Source of the DNA: a virus
DNA length: 24,518 nucleotides
Virus record (IMG/VR): IMGVR_UViG_3300044910_000146
Span: 1 to 24,518 of that record
Strand: one strand, 5' to 3'
In this document: positions 6,292 through 14,579 of the stretch, one piece after another
Layout: every line of letters begins with the position of its first letter
Numbering within the stretch: the stretch's first letter is position 1
Position numbers and translations under genes: made by a program
The notes under the pieces: generated by a model
Told to the model about the DNA's origin: nothing
Databases searched by the model: none
The model's input: the letters and a program-made list of their open reading frames with translations, nothing else

Positions 6292-6524
6292 TAAAACTCC
6301 AAATCTGTATAATCATCGTCGTCATCGCTATTATCTTCTAAGTAATAAGTAATAGCTTGATCTAAAACAGGATCGATACCTGTTGCACCTTGGAAGGTAC
6401 GATCACTAGCACCAAAATCTGCTAGTAATTCAATAAATCTTTCAGCAGCAATTTCTGCTTGTTTCTTATCAATGTAGTCTGCAAATAATAACCATACATC
6501 AGCAATTTGTGTTTCATTCAACAT
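6291..6524 (-). CDS. Small conserved protein between uvsX and uvsY-like gene, 77 aa
   Basis: The correct start is ATG 6524-6522 (MLNETQIADVWLLFADYIDK), with GGAGGA about 6 bases upstream. The longer frame from 6569 has no ribosome-binding site and overlaps uvsX further. The gene overlaps the uvsX stop by 11 bases and the next ATG by 1, so uvsX, this gene and the UvsY-like gene form a coupled unit. The protein has an acidic tail (YYLEDNSDDDDDYTDLEF) that could interact with basic partners. I recall similar small acidic proteins following uvsX in T4-like cyanophages, with no assigned function. Acidic tails of this kind often mimic DNA in protein contacts, but that is speculation here. Confidence 0.8.
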   Translation of the reverse strand: MLNETQIADVWLLFADYIDKKQAEIAAERFIELLADFGASDRTFQGATGIDPVLDQAITYYLEDNSDDDDDYTDLEF

Positions 6525-7596
6525 TTTCGTCCTCCGTGACGTATTCATCATCAATATCATCAATGTCATTAGATATTAACGGTTGATCAGTAAATTCAGC
6601 CATTGCTCTTTCAAGAGCACCGTTAGCATTACTTTCCCACTCTTTACGGTATTGTTTAATTTCAGTACCGTCAGTAGCCACGTATTTAAGTCTATTACCA
6701 TCTTTTGATAGCATACCTTTTTTCTCAAATAAGTCAACTAACCCACTAAATGGATTCATACCTGTAGTATACGGGATTTTAATTTGCAAAGTTTCAAATG
6801 GTTTAGCATAACGAGTTTTCATAATCTTGCATGATGCGCGAATACCGTTAACTTCACTAACTTTGTTACCATCTAAATCTTCTTTTAGTTTAAGTTTTTT
6901 CATTGCTACTACAATGCTTGATGCATAAACAAATCCCTGTCCGCCTGATATTTTGTCATCTGGGTCAAACATATCTTGACTTGCATACGTGTGATTAGTA
7001 CATACTAATCCAACATTGTGACTGCCAAACATATTAACGCAATTACGAACAAGTGCAGTAAGTGCTTTAGGTTTACGACCCATATCACCTTTTAAATCAC
7101 CTGCTTCAAATTGATTAATATCAGTTGGAGTTAGTAACATACCTAATGAATCAACTACAAACAATACTTTTGGTTTGTCTTCCATTGCTTTATATTCTTT
7201 CATAAACTCACTAATAGTTTTAGCTACATCATCAATCATAGCCATATTAAGTTTAAGAAGTTTTTCTTCAGTAGTGTCTACACCTAATGCGTGTAGCCAT
7301 GATTCGTCAAGTGCATTTTCTGAATCAATTAGTACTACATATATTCCTTGTTCTTGTGCATTCTTAACAATGTTACCTGAACAAATATAACTTTTGCCTG
7401 CACCAGATTCGCCTGCAAACACAGTTACTTTACCTAATGGAATGCCTTTATGGAAGTCTGAACTAATAAGATAGTTAAGTGCATAGTTGCCTGTGCCAAC
7501 CCAATCTGTAGGATCGTTAAAGCCTACGCCCAATCCGTCAATGCTTTTTGTTAATGTTTTTCTAAATTTTGTTAAATCGAATGGTTTTGTCGCCAT
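6514..7596 (-). CDS. uvsX: UvsX, RecA-like strand-exchange recombinase, 360 aa
   Basis: Start chosen at ATG 7596-7594 (MATKPFDLTKFRKTLTKSI), with GGAG 7 bases upstream; an upstream in-frame Met lacks this. Walker A GESGAGKS lies near residue 60 and Walker B VLFVVDSLGMLL near residue 145. A DNA-binding loop region (DMGRKPKALTALVRNCVN) and the NHTYAS and ISGGQGFVYASS segments match UvsX/RecA. T4 UvsX is about 390 aa. UvsX polymerises on gp32-coated ssDNA and drives homologous pairing for recombination-dependent replication. The C-terminus is acidic (DIDDIDDEYVTEDENVE), as in many RecA-family proteins that self-regulate through an acidic tail. The leader holds a perfect 11-bp hairpin (7617-7642) between gp32 and uvsX. 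Identification is firm. Confidence 0.96.
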   Translation of the reverse strand: MATKPFDLTKFRKTLTKSIDGLGVGFNDPTDWVGTGNYALNYLISSDFHKGIPLGKVTVFAGESGAGKSYICSGNIVKNAQEQGIYVVLIDSENALDESWLHALGVDTTEEKLLKLNMAMIDDVAKTISEFMKEYKAMEDKPKVLFVVDSLGMLLTPTDINQFEAGDLKGDMGRKPKALTALVRNCVNMFGSHNVGLVCTNHTYASQDMFDPDDKISGGQGFVYASSIVVAMKKLKLKEDLDGNKVSEVNGIRASCKIMKTRYAKPFETLQIKIPYTTGMNPFSGLVDLFEKKGMLSKDGNRLKYVATDGTEIKQYRKEWESNANGALERAMAEFTDQPLISNDIDDIDDEYVTEDENVE

Positions 7597-7659: not shown

Positions 7660-8658
7660 TTAGCCGCGATTACGAATTCTTGCTAAAATATCATTAGCAC
7701 GAGAATCGCTTGATGCTGTAGGAGCTGCTTCTACTGCAGGTTGTGGAGTATAGGTATTAACAACAGCTGGCTCATCCCATGGGGCGTCTTCTTCAACTGT
7801 GGGTACTACGGGTGCAACTACGGGCGTTACTGTTGCAGTAGGTGCTGGTGCTGCGTTTTCGTCAAACTGTACGCCATATGGTCTAAAGTATTTGCCCCAA
7901 CGTTCAATGTCGTATGCTTCACCATTAACAGATGCTTCAAACATTTCTACCATAACTTTAAGTTCAACGTCGCCTGGTTTTTTAGGTAAGTAATCTGCTA
8001 AGTTAGGTAAGCCAAATTTGTCAATTGCTGATCTTTCTTCTTCACTTAGTGGACGTGTATTTCTTTTCCATGTTGATGTTGAATAGTCTGCAAAGCCGCC
8101 TTTACTGCCAACGCGCAATGTAAAGTCAAAACCATTTACATAGTCTGTAGGCAATTCTGTATATTCTTCGTCAGTTAATGCTGCGTGAATTAGTTTGTTA
8201 ATTTGTGGTCCAATAATAAATCTACGGATTGGATTTTCGGGTGGTTCTCTTTCTTCTAAGCCATCTTTAGGTACAAAGCCGTGATAGATGAAACTACGTT
8301 TTTTCCAATATTTACGACCCATTTCTTCTAAAGAAGGATCTTTAAACCAAGGACGCACTTCTGAAAGAATTGGACATACCGAACCGTCGTTGTACATTTC
8401 AACGCATGGTACATTTACTGTTACGGGTTTATTATCTGTTTGACCTTTAATACCTGCAAAAGGTAATTTGATTACGTTACGCTCAACCCAGAAAAACATG
8501 TTATCTGCGTTGCCGTCTGGAAGGAATCTAAAAGTTGCTTCGCCACCGCTTTTAATAGTCCAGAATGGATAAATTGATTTATCACCGCCTGTATTGCTAT
8601 CTGTACTACGTGTTTCTGCCGCTTTTAGTTTTGCTCTGATTTCTGCGAGTGTTGCCAT
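7660..8658 (-). CDS. 32: gp32 single-stranded DNA-binding protein, 332 aa
   Basis: T4-type gp32: the N-terminal oligomerisation segment (MATLAEIRAKLKAAETRS), the OB-fold core with FWTIKSGGEATFRFLPDG (32-49) and NMFFWVERNVIKLPF, then a core region PENPIRRFIIGPQINKLIHA. Only two cysteines occur in the region of the T4 zinc site (C85 and C95), so the His-Cys3 zinc site of T4 gp32 appears absent or altered. A Pro/Ala/Val/Thr-rich linker (about 270-320) leads to a basic, not acidic, tail ending NDILARIRNRG; the acidic tip of T4 gp32 is missing or replaced by DEEDAPWDE-like patches upstream. It coats ssDNA in replication and recombination. The leader holds promoters and a candidate RNA switch. Identification is strong. 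Confidence 0.95.
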   Translation of the reverse strand: MATLAEIRAKLKAAETRSTDSNTGGDKSIYPFWTIKSGGEATFRFLPDGNADNMFFWVERNVIKLPFAGIKGQTDNKPVTVNVPCVEMYNDGSVCPILSEVRPWFKDPSLEEMGRKYWKKRSFIYHGFVPKDGLEEREPPENPIRRFIIGPQINKLIHAALTDEEYTELPTDYVNGFDFTLRVGSKGGFADYSTSTWKRNTRPLSEEERSAIDKFGLPNLADYLPKKPGDVELKVMVEMFEASVNGEAYDIERWGKYFRPYGVQFDENAAPAPTATVTPVVAPVVPTVEEDAPWDEPAVVNTYTPQPAVEAAPTASSDSRANDILARIRNRG

Positions 8659-8666
8659 TTTAATAT

Positions 8667-8725
8667 CCTATGTGTTTTGAGTTAACACACAGATTGCTCT
8701 GTGTGTTATATAGCCTATGTGTTTT
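8667..8725 (-). promoter_or_regulatory. gp32 leader with two mutually exclusive hairpins and a duplicated RBS segment
   Basis: Hairpin 1 pairs TAACACACAGA with TCTGTGTGTTA (8683-8708) on the minus strand: 11 bp with a GCAA tetraloop, a GNRA type. The segment AAAACACATAGG occurs twice, at 8714-8725 and again at 8667-8678, where its AGG forms part of the gp32 ribosome-binding site. The hairpin's second arm can also pair with the downstream copy (10 pairs including two G-U, 7-base loop), which would mask the RBS. Formation of one structure excludes the other. T4 gp32 represses its own translation by binding a leader pseudoknot, so an analogous control is plausible but unproven. Confidence 0.5.
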
Positions 8726-8778
8726 TTATGTTTTATACTGTATATAATAAGTATGCCTTACTTTTAAAGTATGTGCGT

Positions 8779-8807
8779 ATTATATACTCTTTTATTTATA
8801 TGAGCAA
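8779..8807 (-). promoter_or_regulatory. Sigma70-like promoter for gp32
   Basis: Perfect -10 box TATAAT (8784-8779) lies 17 bases after a weak -35, TTGCTC (8807-8802, 3 of 6 matches). This would allow host-polymerase transcription of gp32 before late-sigma activity. The strength depends mainly on the -10. Confidence 0.45.
8793..8800 (-). promoter_or_regulatory. Late promoter, exact TATAAATA, upstream of gp32
   Basis: TATAAATA on the minus strand matches the T4 late consensus exactly. It lies inside the spacer of the sigma70-like promoter, with predicted start near 8787. The gp32 ATG is at 8658, so the leader would be about 130 bases and contain both hairpins. Confidence 0.6.
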
Positions 8808-8835: not shown

Positions 8836-9909
8836 TTACCATTTTGCTAATTGTACAATTCTAGCCAAACTGTCTTCATTTTTAAACGAAACTGATTCAT
8901 GCATACCTGGCTCACCTGGGAGAGGATTGCGGAACATAGCTGGAGTATCTGGATCGTTTTGATCCCATCCACCAGACGGTTGTGCTGCAGATGCTGCTGT
9001 TTGTTGTGTTACTGTTCCTGGAAACACTTGGACACCTTCTGGTTTTTCTGGAGGTGGTGTTTGAATTGATTGGCCAGCTTCTTGTTGTTGAAGAGACCGT
9101 TGCATCTGTCCAAGTGCAGAGCTATTATACGCTGATTGTTGGGCGGTAGATGCCGGTGTAGGTGCTTGCTGGCTTTGGAATGCAGGAGTAATTGCTGCTG
9201 CACCTGCCGGAGCTGCTGCTGGAGCTGGTGTTTGATTAGGATCCATGTTCTTAATTGCTGCATCATATGCTGCTTTTTGCGTTGGATCAGTAGGTGCTGC
9301 CGGTGCTGGTTTACTAGGATCCATATTATTAGTAGCTTTTAAACCAGCGTCACGTTTATCAGATTGTGCTTGCCAATCTAGTGCTGCTTGTGTTTTTGGA
9401 CCCATAATGCCGTCTGCTTTAATTGGATATCCTTTGGCAATTAAATCTTGTTGTTGTTTTAATACTGCCGGATCTGGTTTAGCTTGTGCAGGAGCTGCAT
9501 GTGTAGGAGCTGCAGTTGTGGGTTTAGTTTGTACTGGTTTTCCTCCAGTTCCTGAAGTATGTTGTGCAGGTGCACCTGCAGATTTCTGTGCTGCAGCCCA
9601 TGCAGCATTTTTATCCATACCACTTGCTATATTTGCGTTGTACGCTTGTAACACGGTTTGATGTTGTGCCGGAGCTGCAGTTTGTTGTGCTGCTACAGGT
9701 TTAGTATCAGTAACAGGCGGTGGTGGAGCAACGTATGCACCGCGCCCATGCGGGGCTGTAGTTTGTTGTGTTGCTGCAGTAGTTGCTGTAGTTTGTTGTG
9801 ATGCTACAGGTTTAGTACCAGCAGGAACAACTCCTGCTTCATACATTGCTAACTTTTCATTTAATTGATTAACTCTAAATAAGAGTGCATTTTCTGTAAT
9901 TTTTTTCAT
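8836..9909 (-). CDS. Ala/Pro/Gln/Thr-rich protein with peptidoglycan-binding-like domain, 357 aa
   Basis: Architecture in order: an N-terminal helix MKKITENALLFRVNQLNEKL, a long low-complexity Ala/Pro/Gln/Thr region, a PG_binding_1-type segment at about 146-182 (VLKQQQDLIAKGYPIKADGI, then MGPKTQAALDW), more low complexity, and a C-terminal EDSLARIVQLAKW. The PG_binding_1 fold binds peptidoglycan in cell-wall enzymes, but no catalytic lysozyme or amidase domain is visible. It resembles the gene immediately upstream in ends and in the PG-like segment, so the two are paralogues. The ATG follows the previous stop by two bases with AGAGGATAATA as ribosome-binding site. A virion surface or host wall-contact role is a guess. 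Confidence 0.82.
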   Translation of the reverse strand: MKKITENALLFRVNQLNEKLAMYEAGVVPAGTKPVASQQTTATTAATQQTTAPHGRGAYVAPPPPVTDTKPVAAQQTAAPAQHQTVLQAYNANIASGMDKNAAWAAAQKSAGAPAQHTSGTGGKPVQTKPTTAAPTHAAPAQAKPDPAVLKQQQDLIAKGYPIKADGIMGPKTQAALDWQAQSDKRDAGLKATNNMDPSKPAPAAPTDPTQKAAYDAAIKNMDPNQTPAPAAAPAGAAAITPAFQSQQAPTPASTAQQSAYNSSALGQMQRSLQQQEAGQSIQTPPPEKPEGVQVFPGTVTQQTAASAAQPSGGWDQNDPDTPAMFRNPLPGEPGMHESVSFKNEDSLARIVQLAKW

Positions 9910-9911
9910 TA

Positions 9912-10658
9912 TTATCCTCTTGCTAGTTGAATGATTCTAGCTAAACTGTCACCTTGACTAAATGTTACATGTTCGTTAAGTTCTGGTTGACGATCAAAGT
10001 CGCCTTGTGTGTTATCAAATGGTTCCGGAGCAACAGTTGATTGATCCATGTCTGCACGTAATTGATCATACCCTGCAATTCTATCCTGTGTTGCATTTGT
10101 TTGATTTTCCCAATCAATTGCTTGTTGTGTGTTAGGACCTAAAATGCCGTCAGCCTTGATATTATATCCTTTAGCACGTAGTTCATATTGCAACTTTTGA
10201 ACAGCTGGATCAAACTTAGGAGTAGCCGACTTTGGTTGGCCTGCAGGATGCGGTTTAGCTGCTGCAGGATGATCTTGTGCATAACTAGTGTCCGACGGTT
10301 GAAACTCATGTGGAGCTGCATCAGCGTGTGGTAAATCGTATGATCCTGCAGGCGATAAGTCCGGATATTCTTCAGGATTAGTTAATCCTAAGGGTGGATA
10401 GTTTTCAGGATGATCTTCTGGATGGTCTGCAAAATCACCATGTGCTGCGCGGTTAAGTGCATTGTTAACATTATCTTTACCTTGATTCATGTAATCGCTA
10501 AAATTTTGCATAGGATGGTCTGTTGCGCCAATTGCATCAGGAGCATCTCCAAATGCATCTTGGCGGGTGTTAGCATTAAACCCGCCTTCGATTATTGCCA
10601 TAGCCTCTCTTAACGATCTAACGGTATCTAGAAGTACGGTTTCTGAAATTCTTTTCAT
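9912..10658 (-). CDS. Paralogue with peptidoglycan-binding-like domain, 248 aa
   Basis: Begins MKRISETVLLDTVRSLREAM and ends SQGDSLARIIQLARG. Between them lies a His/Pro/Asp-rich low-complexity region (repeated DHPEDHPENYPP-like stretches) and a PG_binding_1-type segment at about 149-184 (AVQKLQYELRAKGYNIKADG, then ILGPNTQQAIDW). The arrangement matches the 357-aa gene directly downstream, so a tandem duplication followed by divergence of the linkers is likely. The start ATG lies inside the end of the previous gene, with a 41-base overlap in a different frame. No catalytic residues for cell-wall cleavage are evident. Function unknown; wall binding is inferred from the segment alone. Confidence 0.82.
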   Translation of the reverse strand: MKRISETVLLDTVRSLREAMAIIEGGFNANTRQDAFGDAPDAIGATDHPMQNFSDYMNQGKDNVNNALNRAAHGDFADHPEDHPENYPPLGLTNPEEYPDLSPAGSYDLPHADAAPHEFQPSDTSYAQDHPAAAKPHPAGQPKSATPKFDPAVQKLQYELRAKGYNIKADGILGPNTQQAIDWENQTNATQDRIAGYDQLRADMDQSTVAPEPFDNTQGDFDRQPELNEHVTFSQGDSLARIIQLARG

Positions 10659-12975
10659 AATTGTTTCTCACTGTTTTATGCATTTTATGTTTGTCAATAC
10701 TATCAAATCGTCTACGACCAAATGCTTCTAAATCTACTTCATCATCGGTTGGTTCTTGATGTCTAACACCTGCTAATCTTAGAACGTCATTTTGTTCTCT
10801 AGCGTCTTCACTTGGATCTAATTGATCTACTTTTTGCAATACTTCTCTAACATCATCTTCTGATGCGTTACTGTACTCACCGTCTTTAAAACTTTTAATA
10901 ATCTTAGTTTTAACTCTAGTTCCGCCAATAGTAAAATTGCGTTCTTCTTTATTCCAGAATCCTGCAATCGAATTTAGAATTTGTTCTTTACCTGAGATAT
11001 GTTCTTGTGTCGGTTCGCCACCGTCGTTGTCCTCCATATCGCATTCGCCATATCCTGCTTCACATGGAGTTATTCCACTCTCTCTAAGTGCATCACGGAT
11101 AGTCATACCTTCTGCAAACATGGTTTCTAGTGTTGCACCGGCTGCTTTAGCTTTAATAAACTTAGCTTTGATTTTAGATTTTTTATGATGAATACCTTCT
11201 TGCATTGGAGGTGCTGGAGGTGCTGGAGGTGCTGGAGGTGCTGGAGGTGCTGGAGGAACTTCACTACCTGGAGCTGGAGGAACTTCACTACCTGGAGCTG
11301 GAGGAACTTCACTACCTGGAGGTAATTCACCTTCTGCACCTAGTTCTCCTTCTGGAGGCAGTCCATCCATATCAGGAGGCATTCCGCCCATGTCTAGAGG
11401 CATTCCGCCGCCTAGTCCGCCTAGTCCGCCGCCCATATCAGGTGTACCTTCAGGAGCTGCTGGCGGTGCTGCTATATCCGGAGGAGCAGATCCGTTTGCT
11501 GCAGGTGCCATATCTTGTCCACCAATGTCGCCATCACCAAATTTTAATTGAACTGCTACACCTGGATCAGTGTGCGTTACGTATTGTTGAATTAATGGGC
11601 GAGTATCTAAATCTGGATCAATATCTTTAAGTGCATCTAAGAAATCTGGATCGTCAATTAGTCCAGCTAAACTTTGAATAGCATTAACTCCATCTGGTCC
11701 GCCGCGCAATTCTTTTTCAAGAATTCTATTTAATTTGTCAATTGCAACTTTTTGTGCATCTTTGTTTGGGCTAAACAACTCATCTTTATCTTCAAGCATA
11801 ATGCGATTAATAAATGATTCAAATGTTTGTTCAGGATCAAAGCTTTCTTTTTTATGGCTTTTATATCCTTTGTTTTTCATAGAGTGTGCTAATGCCCAAG
11901 GATTATCAATTTCCTTGTGTTTCTTCATTGCTTTAACAGTACCTTCCCATCCTTCTGGTGCTTTTTCATCTAAGAAATAATCTGAAGATAGTTCGCATAC
12001 TGGTAATTCACTTTCGTCTACGATATTGTATAAAAACGGAAATACTGTTTTCATTTCTTCATTAAACGTGCGCACAGTTAATCGATCAATCCAATCATTC
12101 ATTACAGTTTCTGGGATAATGCGTTCTTCTTTTTCAACAAATGATTCTGCAAATTGTTGATAGTATGCAGGGCGTTGTAAGCTATTAATTTCTTTTTTAA
12201 CTGAGTCAATGCGCTCAATTACACGCGATGTAACGTCGCCCATTGCTTCTGATATTTGAGATTGGCGACCAACATACCCTTTAAATTTGCGTAAACTTGC
12301 TAATTCCTCACTAAGTTTAGTTATATGTTTGCCAATTGCATCGTATGGGTTGCCGCCGTGTTTAACATGTTCTGCTAATGCACGAGCACCTGGTAAGTGT
12401 TTATACGGGTATTTAAATCTTTCACCATCTGCGTTTTCTACATAAATGCTTTGAATATGCATAGTACGACCTGCAGCTAGTTCTGGATTAATAGGTTGGC
12501 TATGTTTAACAATTAACCGAGCTTCACCTAAGTTTTGGTAACTTATTTTAGAAGTTCCAAACATTTTACTTTCCATCATTGGTTGTTCCTTGGGTTTTGC
12601 TTGAAACTGATAGTCTCGTTTGTCTAAGTTGCTTTTTCCAATATTTTGTACATCAAAATTTAATAACCGATTTTTAGCAAATTGTCTAAATGATCTTATA
12701 AATTTATATGCATTGTGATGTGTAGCTCCAGAGTCGTCGTCAACTAAGTCTCCGCTAACTTGTACTACAATACCATCATCTAAGTCTAAAGTAATAGCAA
12801 TAGTACCAAGCGGTTCGCCATGTTCTTCATATTCAAATTCAAAGAATCGAGCACGTGGTATATCAGTCTTTTTACTTAATACTTCTGCATTTTCGTCACC
12901 CATTTTAATATTTGAGAAACGTGTTTGTATTTTACCATAAAGGTCTAAAGCGATTTTATCTAAATTATTGTCCAT
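10618..12975 (-). CDS. Large conserved phage protein with Pro-rich tract, 785 aa
   Basis: Start taken as ATG 12975-12973 (MDNNLDKIALDLYGKI). An in-frame GTG at 12990 is possible, but it overlaps the late octamer GATAAATA (12988-12981). The N-terminal part contains IRSFRQFAKNRLLNFDVQNI and KSNLDKRDYQFQAK, then ARLIVKHSQPI and FKYPYKHLPGARALAEHV. The middle has a Gly/Met/Pro stretch and then a Pro/Ala tract encoded by tandem DNA repeats (11207-11317). The C-terminal region holds GITPCEAGYGECDMED and FWNKEERNFTIGGTRVKTKI. I recall similar large proteins of unknown role in marine T4-like phages. The position directly after gp17 suggests a virion or assembly role. No known enzyme motif is seen. 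Confidence 0.82.
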   Translation of the reverse strand: MDNNLDKIALDLYGKIQTRFSNIKMGDENAEVLSKKTDIPRARFFEFEYEEHGEPLGTIAITLDLDDGIVVQVSGDLVDDDSGATHHNAYKFIRSFRQFAKNRLLNFDVQNIGKSNLDKRDYQFQAKPKEQPMMESKMFGTSKISYQNLGEARLIVKHSQPINPELAAGRTMHIQSIYVENADGERFKYPYKHLPGARALAEHVKHGGNPYDAIGKHITKLSEELASLRKFKGYVGRQSQISEAMGDVTSRVIERIDSVKKEINSLQRPAYYQQFAESFVEKEERIIPETVMNDWIDRLTVRTFNEEMKTVFPFLYNIVDESELPVCELSSDYFLDEKAPEGWEGTVKAMKKHKEIDNPWALAHSMKNKGYKSHKKESFDPEQTFESFINRIMLEDKDELFSPNKDAQKVAIDKLNRILEKELRGGPDGVNAIQSLAGLIDDPDFLDALKDIDPDLDTRPLIQQYVTHTDPGVAVQLKFGDGDIGGQDMAPAANGSAPPDIAAPPAAPEGTPDMGGGLGGLGGGMPLDMGGMPPDMDGLPPEGELGAEGELPPGSEVPPAPGSEVPPAPGSEVPPAPPAPPAPPAPPAPPMQEGIHHKKSKIKAKFIKAKAAGATLETMFAEGMTIRDALRESGITPCEAGYGECDMEDNDGGEPTQEHISGKEQILNSIAGFWNKEERNFTIGGTRVKTKIIKSFKDGEYSNASEDDVREVLQKVDQLDPSEDAREQNDVLRLAGVRHQEPTDDEVDLEAFGRRRFDSIDKHKMHKTVRNNYEKNFRNRTSRYR
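11207..11317. repeat. Tandem repeats encoding a Pro/Ala tract
   Basis: GGAGGTGCT is repeated five times (11207-11251), followed by nearly three copies of a 24-base unit starting GGAGGAACTTCACTACCT (11252-11275, 11276-11299, and 11300-11317 with a changed end). Read on the minus strand they encode repeated PPAPGSEV and PPA units in the 785-aa protein. Such arrays can change copy number. Confidence 0.9.
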
Positions 12976-12980
12976 GTTTA

Positions 12981-12988
12981 TATTTATC
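12981..12988 (-). promoter_or_regulatory. Late promoter GATAAATA with +1 predicted at the ATG
   Basis: GATAAATA fits NATAAATA. By T4 geometry the start falls exactly on the A of the ATG at 12975, implying a leaderless transcript. The gene has no Shine-Dalgarno site, which agrees. Confidence 0.55.
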
Positions 12989-14579
12989 ACATATTAGAGG
13001 AAACAAATATTGGTAGAGGTGCTTCCCAGTCCTCAATTCTTTCTTCAATTCGCATTCTTTCAAATACCATTGGATCCCATTCTGCTAGTATATCGATCAT
13101 TCTTACTATTAGTAATAATGCTGCTACTAAGTCATCGTGTTGTCCTGGTTTACCTTTAAAACTAATCCCGTGCGCAATAAAAGTTTTTAATTCAGATATT
13201 AATGGCTTACTGTTAATAGTCATTTTATCTTCTTCTATAAAATATTTTAATTTTGAACACGCAGCGATTTTATTATTAAATGTTGTATTGAATCCTTTGC
13301 GGAATTTACGAACATGCCCCTTTCTGCCAGGTTCACTTACAAATAACCCTGGAAATGTTTCTTCTCCTAAATTTTCAATTACTACTAACGCGCTTTCGCC
13401 CACTGTGTTGTTTTCTACTGACCAGTATATTGAATTATATTGATCGTATCCTAGTTCGTCTTGTATATACAACAACACTTCTCTAAGTAATTTTACTTGT
13501 CCTTGTATTGGAGTAATGTTATGATGCCATTCTGCTACTTGCTGCATTGATGGTAACTCAAATACTGTTATTGCAGAAAAGTCTCCACCTGTTCCTAAAC
13601 TTGGATCTAATGCAATTAAATATAAGTTACCTGCAATTGGTTTCTTATACCAACGCACTTGTCCCATCTTTGTTGTTGGTTCTTTACCATATATTTCTAC
13701 TAATTTTAAACTGTTAATAAGAGTTTCGTCGTATACAAGAAATTCGCAGCCATATTCACGTCTAAACTTTTCTTCACCTATACGACCAAGCTCTTCTTGT
13801 TTCCATGCATCGTCACGATCTGGATGATCCCACCAGTCAGACCGGAATCCAGCAAATCCGTTAATTCCGATCTTATCTGCCTTTTCATTTCCAAACTCGT
13901 CAAAATATTGCTGGCTTTCTTTCCATATAGTAGCAAATTGATCTTCGTCACTGTTTGGTGTAGATGTAATAATACAACGTCCACCAGTTGCTAGTGTAGG
14001 TGATATAGAAGTCCAAAACTCTTCAGCAATGTTAGGTTGCAAAAAAGCAAACTCATCGCAATATAATAACGAAATACTCATACCCCGCCCGGTTGTACCT
14101 GTAGTAGTCTGGCTTACAATACGCGAACCGTTATCAAACTCCATAGATCCTTTATTGTAACTTACTACACCGGCACGTATAAAGTCTGGGCAAAGTTCGT
14201 ACCCATATCGTATACGTTGCATAATCTCTTGGGCACCTGTATATTTGTGCGCTGCAATTAGAATAGTTTGATCTGGATGAAACATTGCAAACCATAATAA
14301 GTATGCAGATGCACAAGTAGTTTTACCACTTTGGCGCGGTAACATATTAATATTAAAACGATGTGCATGATAGCAGTTTAACAAATTAACCTGATAATCA
14401 AACGGTTTAAATAACAGCTTACCTTTTACTGAATGTTGAATATGAAAAAAGTATCTTGAGAAATACAGATACCCGTCTTCAGGATCAGAACACAACAATA
14501 TATCGTTAATTTGCTGTTCACTAAATTTTTCAGTTTTATGTGCTTTTTTTGTAAGGACACCGTCTAACGATTTTCCCAT
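12987..14579 (-). CDS. 17: Large terminase subunit gp17, 530 aa
   Basis: ATPase/nuclease motor that packages DNA into proheads. Walker A PRQSGKTT is at 81-88 and Walker B LLYCDEFAF at 171-179, with CDEF at 174-177. The coupling motif STPN is at 206-209. The C-terminal RNase H-like nuclease begins IALDPSLGTGGDFSAI (first metal-binding Asp near 325) and continues to QHDDLVAALLL near residue 480, with the Asp pair typical of the family. Length is close to T4 gp17 (610 aa) though somewhat shorter. It pairs functionally with the gp16-like gene 2 kb upstream, separated by two conserved genes and a terminator. AAAGGA precedes the ATG by about 7 bases. Identification is firm. Confidence 0.97.
   Translation of the reverse strand: MGKSLDGVLTKKAHKTEKFSEQQINDILLCSDPEDGYLYFSRYFFHIQHSVKGKLLFKPFDYQVNLLNCYHAHRFNINMLPRQSGKTTCASAYLLWFAMFHPDQTILIAAHKYTGAQEIMQRIRYGYELCPDFIRAGVVSYNKGSMEFDNGSRIVSQTTTGTTGRGMSISLLYCDEFAFLQPNIAEEFWTSISPTLATGGRCIITSTPNSDEDQFATIWKESQQYFDEFGNEKADKIGINGFAGFRSDWWDHPDRDDAWKQEELGRIGEEKFRREYGCEFLVYDETLINSLKLVEIYGKEPTTKMGQVRWYKKPIAGNLYLIALDPSLGTGGDFSAITVFELPSMQQVAEWHHNITPIQGQVKLLREVLLYIQDELGYDQYNSIYWSVENNTVGESALVVIENLGEETFPGLFVSEPGRKGHVRKFRKGFNTTFNNKIAACSKLKYFIEEDKMTINSKPLISELKTFIAHGISFKGKPGQHDDLVAALLLIVRMIDILAEWDPMVFERMRIEERIEDWEAPLPIFVSSNM

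Follow-up and report, generated by a model that had tools for sequence, protein, structure and literature searches.

A conserved hairpin and an open, repeat-bearing stretch in a jumbo-phage gp32 leader suggest a translational operator on the T4/RB69 plan

The leader of the gp32 gene in the window (the whole 24,518-nt stretch of viral DNA that was analysed) carries a conserved hairpin and an unusually open stretch with direct repeats, and these features are specific to gp32 leaders. With moderate confidence we predict that it is the autogenous translational operator of a jumbo-phage gp32, following the plan of T4 and RB69; gp32 would bind the leader and repress translation, and the hairpin would have a role in both. 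The structure is real and its purpose probably ordinary: the variant is new and the operator type is known, and the two-state RNA switch over the ribosome-binding site (RBS) envisaged in the original prediction is unlikely.

That the leader belongs to gp32, as originally proposed, was borne out by a match of the encoded protein to phrog_1192 (E 1.3e-51); phrog_224 (single-strand DNA-binding protein) was also matched. Annotated ssDNA-binding proteins of RaK2, GAP32, PA5oct, Atu_ph07 and other jumbo phages share 37-54% identity with this protein. A Pfam search of the protein gave no match and a solved-structure search no meaningful one. The order gp32-recombinase is conserved in most annotated relatives (e.g. 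Phosso, XaC1, RaK2, 121Q and GAP32). The features considered here are as follows.

6517..7596, minus strand: UvsX/RecA-like recombinase, downstream of gp32 (PF00154, E 1.7e-15)
7660..8658, minus strand: gp32, single-strand DNA-binding protein, 332 aa, start at 8658 (phrog_1192 and phrog_224 matches)
8654..8714, minus strand: possible weak long-range helix over the start codon, GCUAU (8714-8710) with AUGGC (8658-8654)
8667..8678, minus strand: repeat copy 2, AAAACACATAGG, with a Shine-Dalgarno-like AGG (exact repeat; AAAACACA(A)TAGG in relatives)
8667..8693, minus strand: possible alternative helix, hairpin 3' arm 8693-8684 with 8676-8667 (about -10 kcal/mol)
8683..8708, minus strand: 11-bp hairpin, arms 8708-8698 and 8693-8683, loop 8697-8694 GCAA (fold prediction; pairing in 12 leaders)
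8714..8725, minus strand: repeat copy 1, AAAACACATAGG (exact repeat)
8779..8807, minus strand: promoter-like TTGCTC-17-TATAAT

The promoter-like element was read directly from the sequence, and relatives have TTGACC-17-CATAAT at the equivalent place; a consensus promoter scan did not list the window's element because its -35 is weak. A T4-late-like TATAAATA lies inside its spacer at 8800-8793, and the gp32 transcript probably starts near 8772. Further upstream on the minus strand, the adjoining ORFs at 8836-9909 and 9912-10658 resemble paralogues: both have a common KADGI(M/L)GP(K/N)TQ stretch (a borderline peptidoglycan-binding domain), and both end C-terminally with DSLARI(V/I)QLA. A large ORF on the same strand (10618-12990) contains a tandem proline-rich GSEVPPAP / PPAPPAP repeat tract.

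The predicted 11-bp GNRA-capped hairpin was found on the minus strand at 8708-8683, with 11 pairs, a GCAA loop and an energy of -14.1 kcal/mol in the window leader. The fold of the 96-nt leader had a z-score of -3.6 against 200 dinucleotide shuffles, none of which was equally stable, and the local hairpin test gave z -5.4. All 12 distinct leaders from close relatives (73-100% gp32 identity) preserve the pairing, while the loop and flanks vary. Pair 10 shows a double change (A-U to G-C in L004, L107 and L108) and pair 9 a G-C to G-U change in one leader only (L108); pair 10 is the only one with covariation on both sides, the arms being otherwise invariant across the 12 leaders. The GNRA loop was rejected as a recognition element because it is not conserved: GCAA occurs in 2/12 leaders and loop length ranges from 4 to 6 nt. 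No T-run follows the stem and no transcription terminator was found, and an Rfam search of the leader up to E 5 matched no described RNA family.

Two exact copies of AAAACACATAGG, also claimed originally, occupy 8667-8678 and 8714-8725, the rest of the window has no further copy, and the leader's repeat score was 6.5 sd above shuffles. The original prediction described these copies as a duplicated RBS segment flanking the hairpin. The duplication is real; what is conserved is another matter. AAAACAC flanks the hairpin on either side in 12/12 leaders, the AGG of the upstream copy was missing in two of them (L089 and L090/L104), and AAAACACA(A)TAGG occurs only twice per genome in two 372-kb relatives, in one of which (G001) both copies were read directly in the gp32 leader. 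The conserved unit is therefore an A/C-rich single-stranded element specific to the gp32 leader, and a duplicated RBS was rejected as the conserved element. Seven extra loci that have the 3' arm and repeat pattern and lack gp32 look like chance matches, mostly in apparent coding sequence.

As a background for 28 distinct gp32 leaders (27 of jumbo type and the T4 leader), we took 208 regions lying upstream of other ORFs in the same seven genome groups. A 48%-identity relative from the genome-contig scan, whose start was not reliably placed, was excluded. With background genes and starts taken by a crude ORF rule, related leaders non-independent and folding at standard 37 C parameters, the RBS region was less paired in gp32 leaders than in the 208 others (Mann-Whitney p 1e-9) and direct repeats were stronger (p 1.5e-6). 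Local hairpins were also stronger than in the background sample (p 0.002), but not in every leader; several distant leaders, among them that of T4, did not reach significance in the hairpin test. Measured against the 208 background leaders, the RBS segment of the window leader was mostly unpaired (0.66) and its repeat z was 6.5; the T4 gp32 leader was modest on the openness measure (0.52). The unselected background top lists included the gp32 genes of the window, its relative, Atu_ph07, GAP32, Vibrio 2.275 and PA5oct. Inclusion of gp32 genes in the background makes the comparison conservative.

Distant leaders differ in sequence but share one order of elements: a promoter, a hairpin, an open A-rich stretch in which each clade has its own repeats, then Shine-Dalgarno and AUG. 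A hairpin upstream of the open repeat region is usual, not universal, among the 28. The clade-specific repeat is AACAAAGAA(A/G)CAAA in the GAP32, XbC2 and Munch leaders, TTAGCACAA in the Atu_ph07 leader and AGGCAT in the leaders of the 60% clade.

Several other elements were noted near gp32 genes. In the L016-L079 leaders (about 60% identity), the 60 nt or so that precede the gp32 start codon hold two or three AAGGCATA/AGGC elements. One or more copies of a AACAAAGA(A/T)-type element stand shortly before the Shine-Dalgarno, about 20-60 nt before the gp32 start, in L119, L121, L122, L124, L126-L130 and L153-L157; gp32 in these phages is only about 40% identical to that of the window, and their upstream hairpins differ. 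Upstream of gp32 in L010, L011, L012, L014, L015 and L034 a 12-13 bp hairpin lies over the promoter -10/start region, followed in most by a T-run, so in these six the gp32 promoter apparently overlaps with the terminator of the preceding gene. At the equivalent position, many of the 60% relatives carry a dyad, GCGCATAA..TTATGCG. Possible H-type pseudoknots were seen in the leaders of PA5oct (L117:500-600; loop AACCC with downstream GGGTT, chance p 0.12 in a weak test) and Vibrio phage 2.275 (L125:390-600; loop CGTTGT with downstream ACAACG, chance p 0.05, likewise in a weak test); should they prove real, the T4 gp32 pseudoknot would have distant counterparts in these two phages.

As an operator, the window leader would present a promoter-proximal stable structure, here a simple hairpin, and then unfolded A/C-rich RNA with repeated AAAACACA that extends across the Shine-Dalgarno and the start codon. 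As long as gp32 is taken up by single-stranded DNA, the open RBS would be translated; gp32 in excess would cooperatively coat the open stretch and block ribosomes. The hairpin could serve as the gp32 entry site or as a boundary.

Openness and A-richness generally favour translation initiation, and the open A/C-rich leader might instead act as a translation enhancer (S1/30S standby), with the hairpin protecting the mRNA from decay and no feedback by gp32. The unusual stability of T4 gene 32 mRNA (PMC3014915) speaks for such a role. We consider this explanation doubtful. The major-capsid leaders of the same genomes, a high-expression control, lack these features: their unpaired fraction was an ordinary 0.34-0.52 and their repeat z did not exceed 1.3. 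In addition, self-repression by gp32 is established in T4 and RB69 (PMC535899, PMC3014915).

The switch of the original prediction would work through the hairpin's 3' arm: gp32 or another signal would open the hairpin, and the freed arm would pair with the RBS copy and turn translation off. This pairing can indeed be drawn, as claimed, with 10 pairs including U-G and G-U and a 7-nt loop, and it is possible in 12/12 leaders, in most of them with a bulge. The complementarity of the 3' arm to the RBS copy exceeds chance in the window (duplex -12.2 versus -6.0 +/- 1.7), though this is in part due to the AACACA core that the 5' arm has in common with the repeats. However, the RBS-pairing state was never competitive. 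In the window leader the alternative helix reached -9.8 to -10.0 kcal/mol, well short of the hairpin, and its probability in the window transcript was about 5e-4. Over the 12 distinct leaders it lay 3.6-7.9 kcal/mol above the hairpin, with a highest mean probability of 1.8e-3 (<=0.2% of the ensemble at equilibrium), so the two folds are not close enough in energy to interconvert. When folding was followed in growing transcripts, the hairpin was complete before the RBS copy emerged and the alternative never exceeded 0.1%.

Energy calculations and a search for covariation had both been suggested as checks in the original prediction, and the second agreed with the first: no compensatory change favours the alternative helix, and double changes occur in the hairpin alone. 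The positions altered at pairs 9 and 10 stay paired in the alternative helix too; these changes therefore do not count against it, but none requires it. Moreover, the RBS copy reads AACACAATAGG in 9/12 leaders, where the inserted A produces a bulge in the alternative helix. Elsewhere in the family, 26 further distinct leaders showed no special complementarity between 3' arm and RBS, so the pairing is confined to close relatives of the window. A switch is also unneeded, because the RBS is already open in the stable fold and directly coverable by gp32. We nevertheless keep the switch as an unlikely reading rather than dropping it, mainly because the arms, like AAAACACA, are nearly invariant, as expected under a three-way constraint; sequence-specific recognition would also give such near-invariance of the arms. 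A protein-driven version, in which gp32 spreading from the upstream repeat melts the 5' arm and the freed 3' arm clamps the RBS copy, is highly improbable; if true, it would be an addition to simple T4-type occlusion, confined to the window's close relatives.

It is very unlikely that the controlled element is a clamp on the start codon, formed around the hairpin by pairing of the copy 1 flank GCUAU(AU) with (AU)AUGGC. Such pairing is predicted with P 0.28-0.95 in 9/12 leaders and has 7 pairs wherever AUAUGGC occurs; however, it is absent (P about 0) in the other three (L089, L104/L090 and L095/L003), the window has only 5 weak pairs, and AUGGC is fixed by the protein sequence. Least likely of all is that the inverted repeat works at the DNA level, for instance by binding a protein, and that its RNA fold is incidental: the arms are nearly invariant in sequence and not merely in pairing, but the A-U/G-C double change and the G-C to G-U change preserve RNA pairing, the loop varies from 4 to 6 nt, and the hairpin sits on the transcript, between promoter and RBS.

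An operator of the predicted kind would bear on a subject that a review (PMC3014915) singled out, the self-control of gp32 in diverse T4 relatives, which needs study; the same review noted that the T4-type pseudoknot may be the sole viral pseudoknot used in translation autoregulation. Each clade of these jumbo phages has a structured element and a repeat of its own; together their leaders form a natural set of candidate operators, and what gp32 recognises in RNA thus becomes directly testable.

Among known systems, RNAs that sequester the RBS, such as the hairpin hiding the mobE RBS (cited in PMC3014915), resemble the window leader, for which a fold with the RBS paired can be drawn as well; in the window leader, though, such a fold is never competitive, and no compensatory change supports it. 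The operator hairpin of T4 gene 43 (DNA polymerase), where control is known, is likewise a leader hairpin of a replication-protein gene; loop bases are important for recognition there (PMC3014915), whereas the loop sequence of the window hairpin is not conserved. The closest comparison is with the gp32 operators of T4 and RB69, which combine a structured element with an unstructured stretch of UUAAA repeats over the RBS (PMC535899, PMC3014915). The original prediction held that the layout here differs from that of T4, and in part it does. In place of the T4/RB69 pseudoknot the window has a simple hairpin: no loop-flank pairing of at least 3 bp was detected and loops are not conserved in the 12 leaders, in a test of such low power that T4's own pairing was also not significant. 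The repeat is the A/C-rich AAAACACA rather than UUAAA, and the hairpin lies between two repeat copies and ends about 25 nt before the AUG. We would therefore describe the leader as working like the T4 operator rather than as a proven member of its type. The overall plan is nonetheless that of T4: a gp32-family ssDNA-binding gene, a promoter-proximal position, and a structured element 5' of an unstructured stretch of short repeats that covers the RBS.
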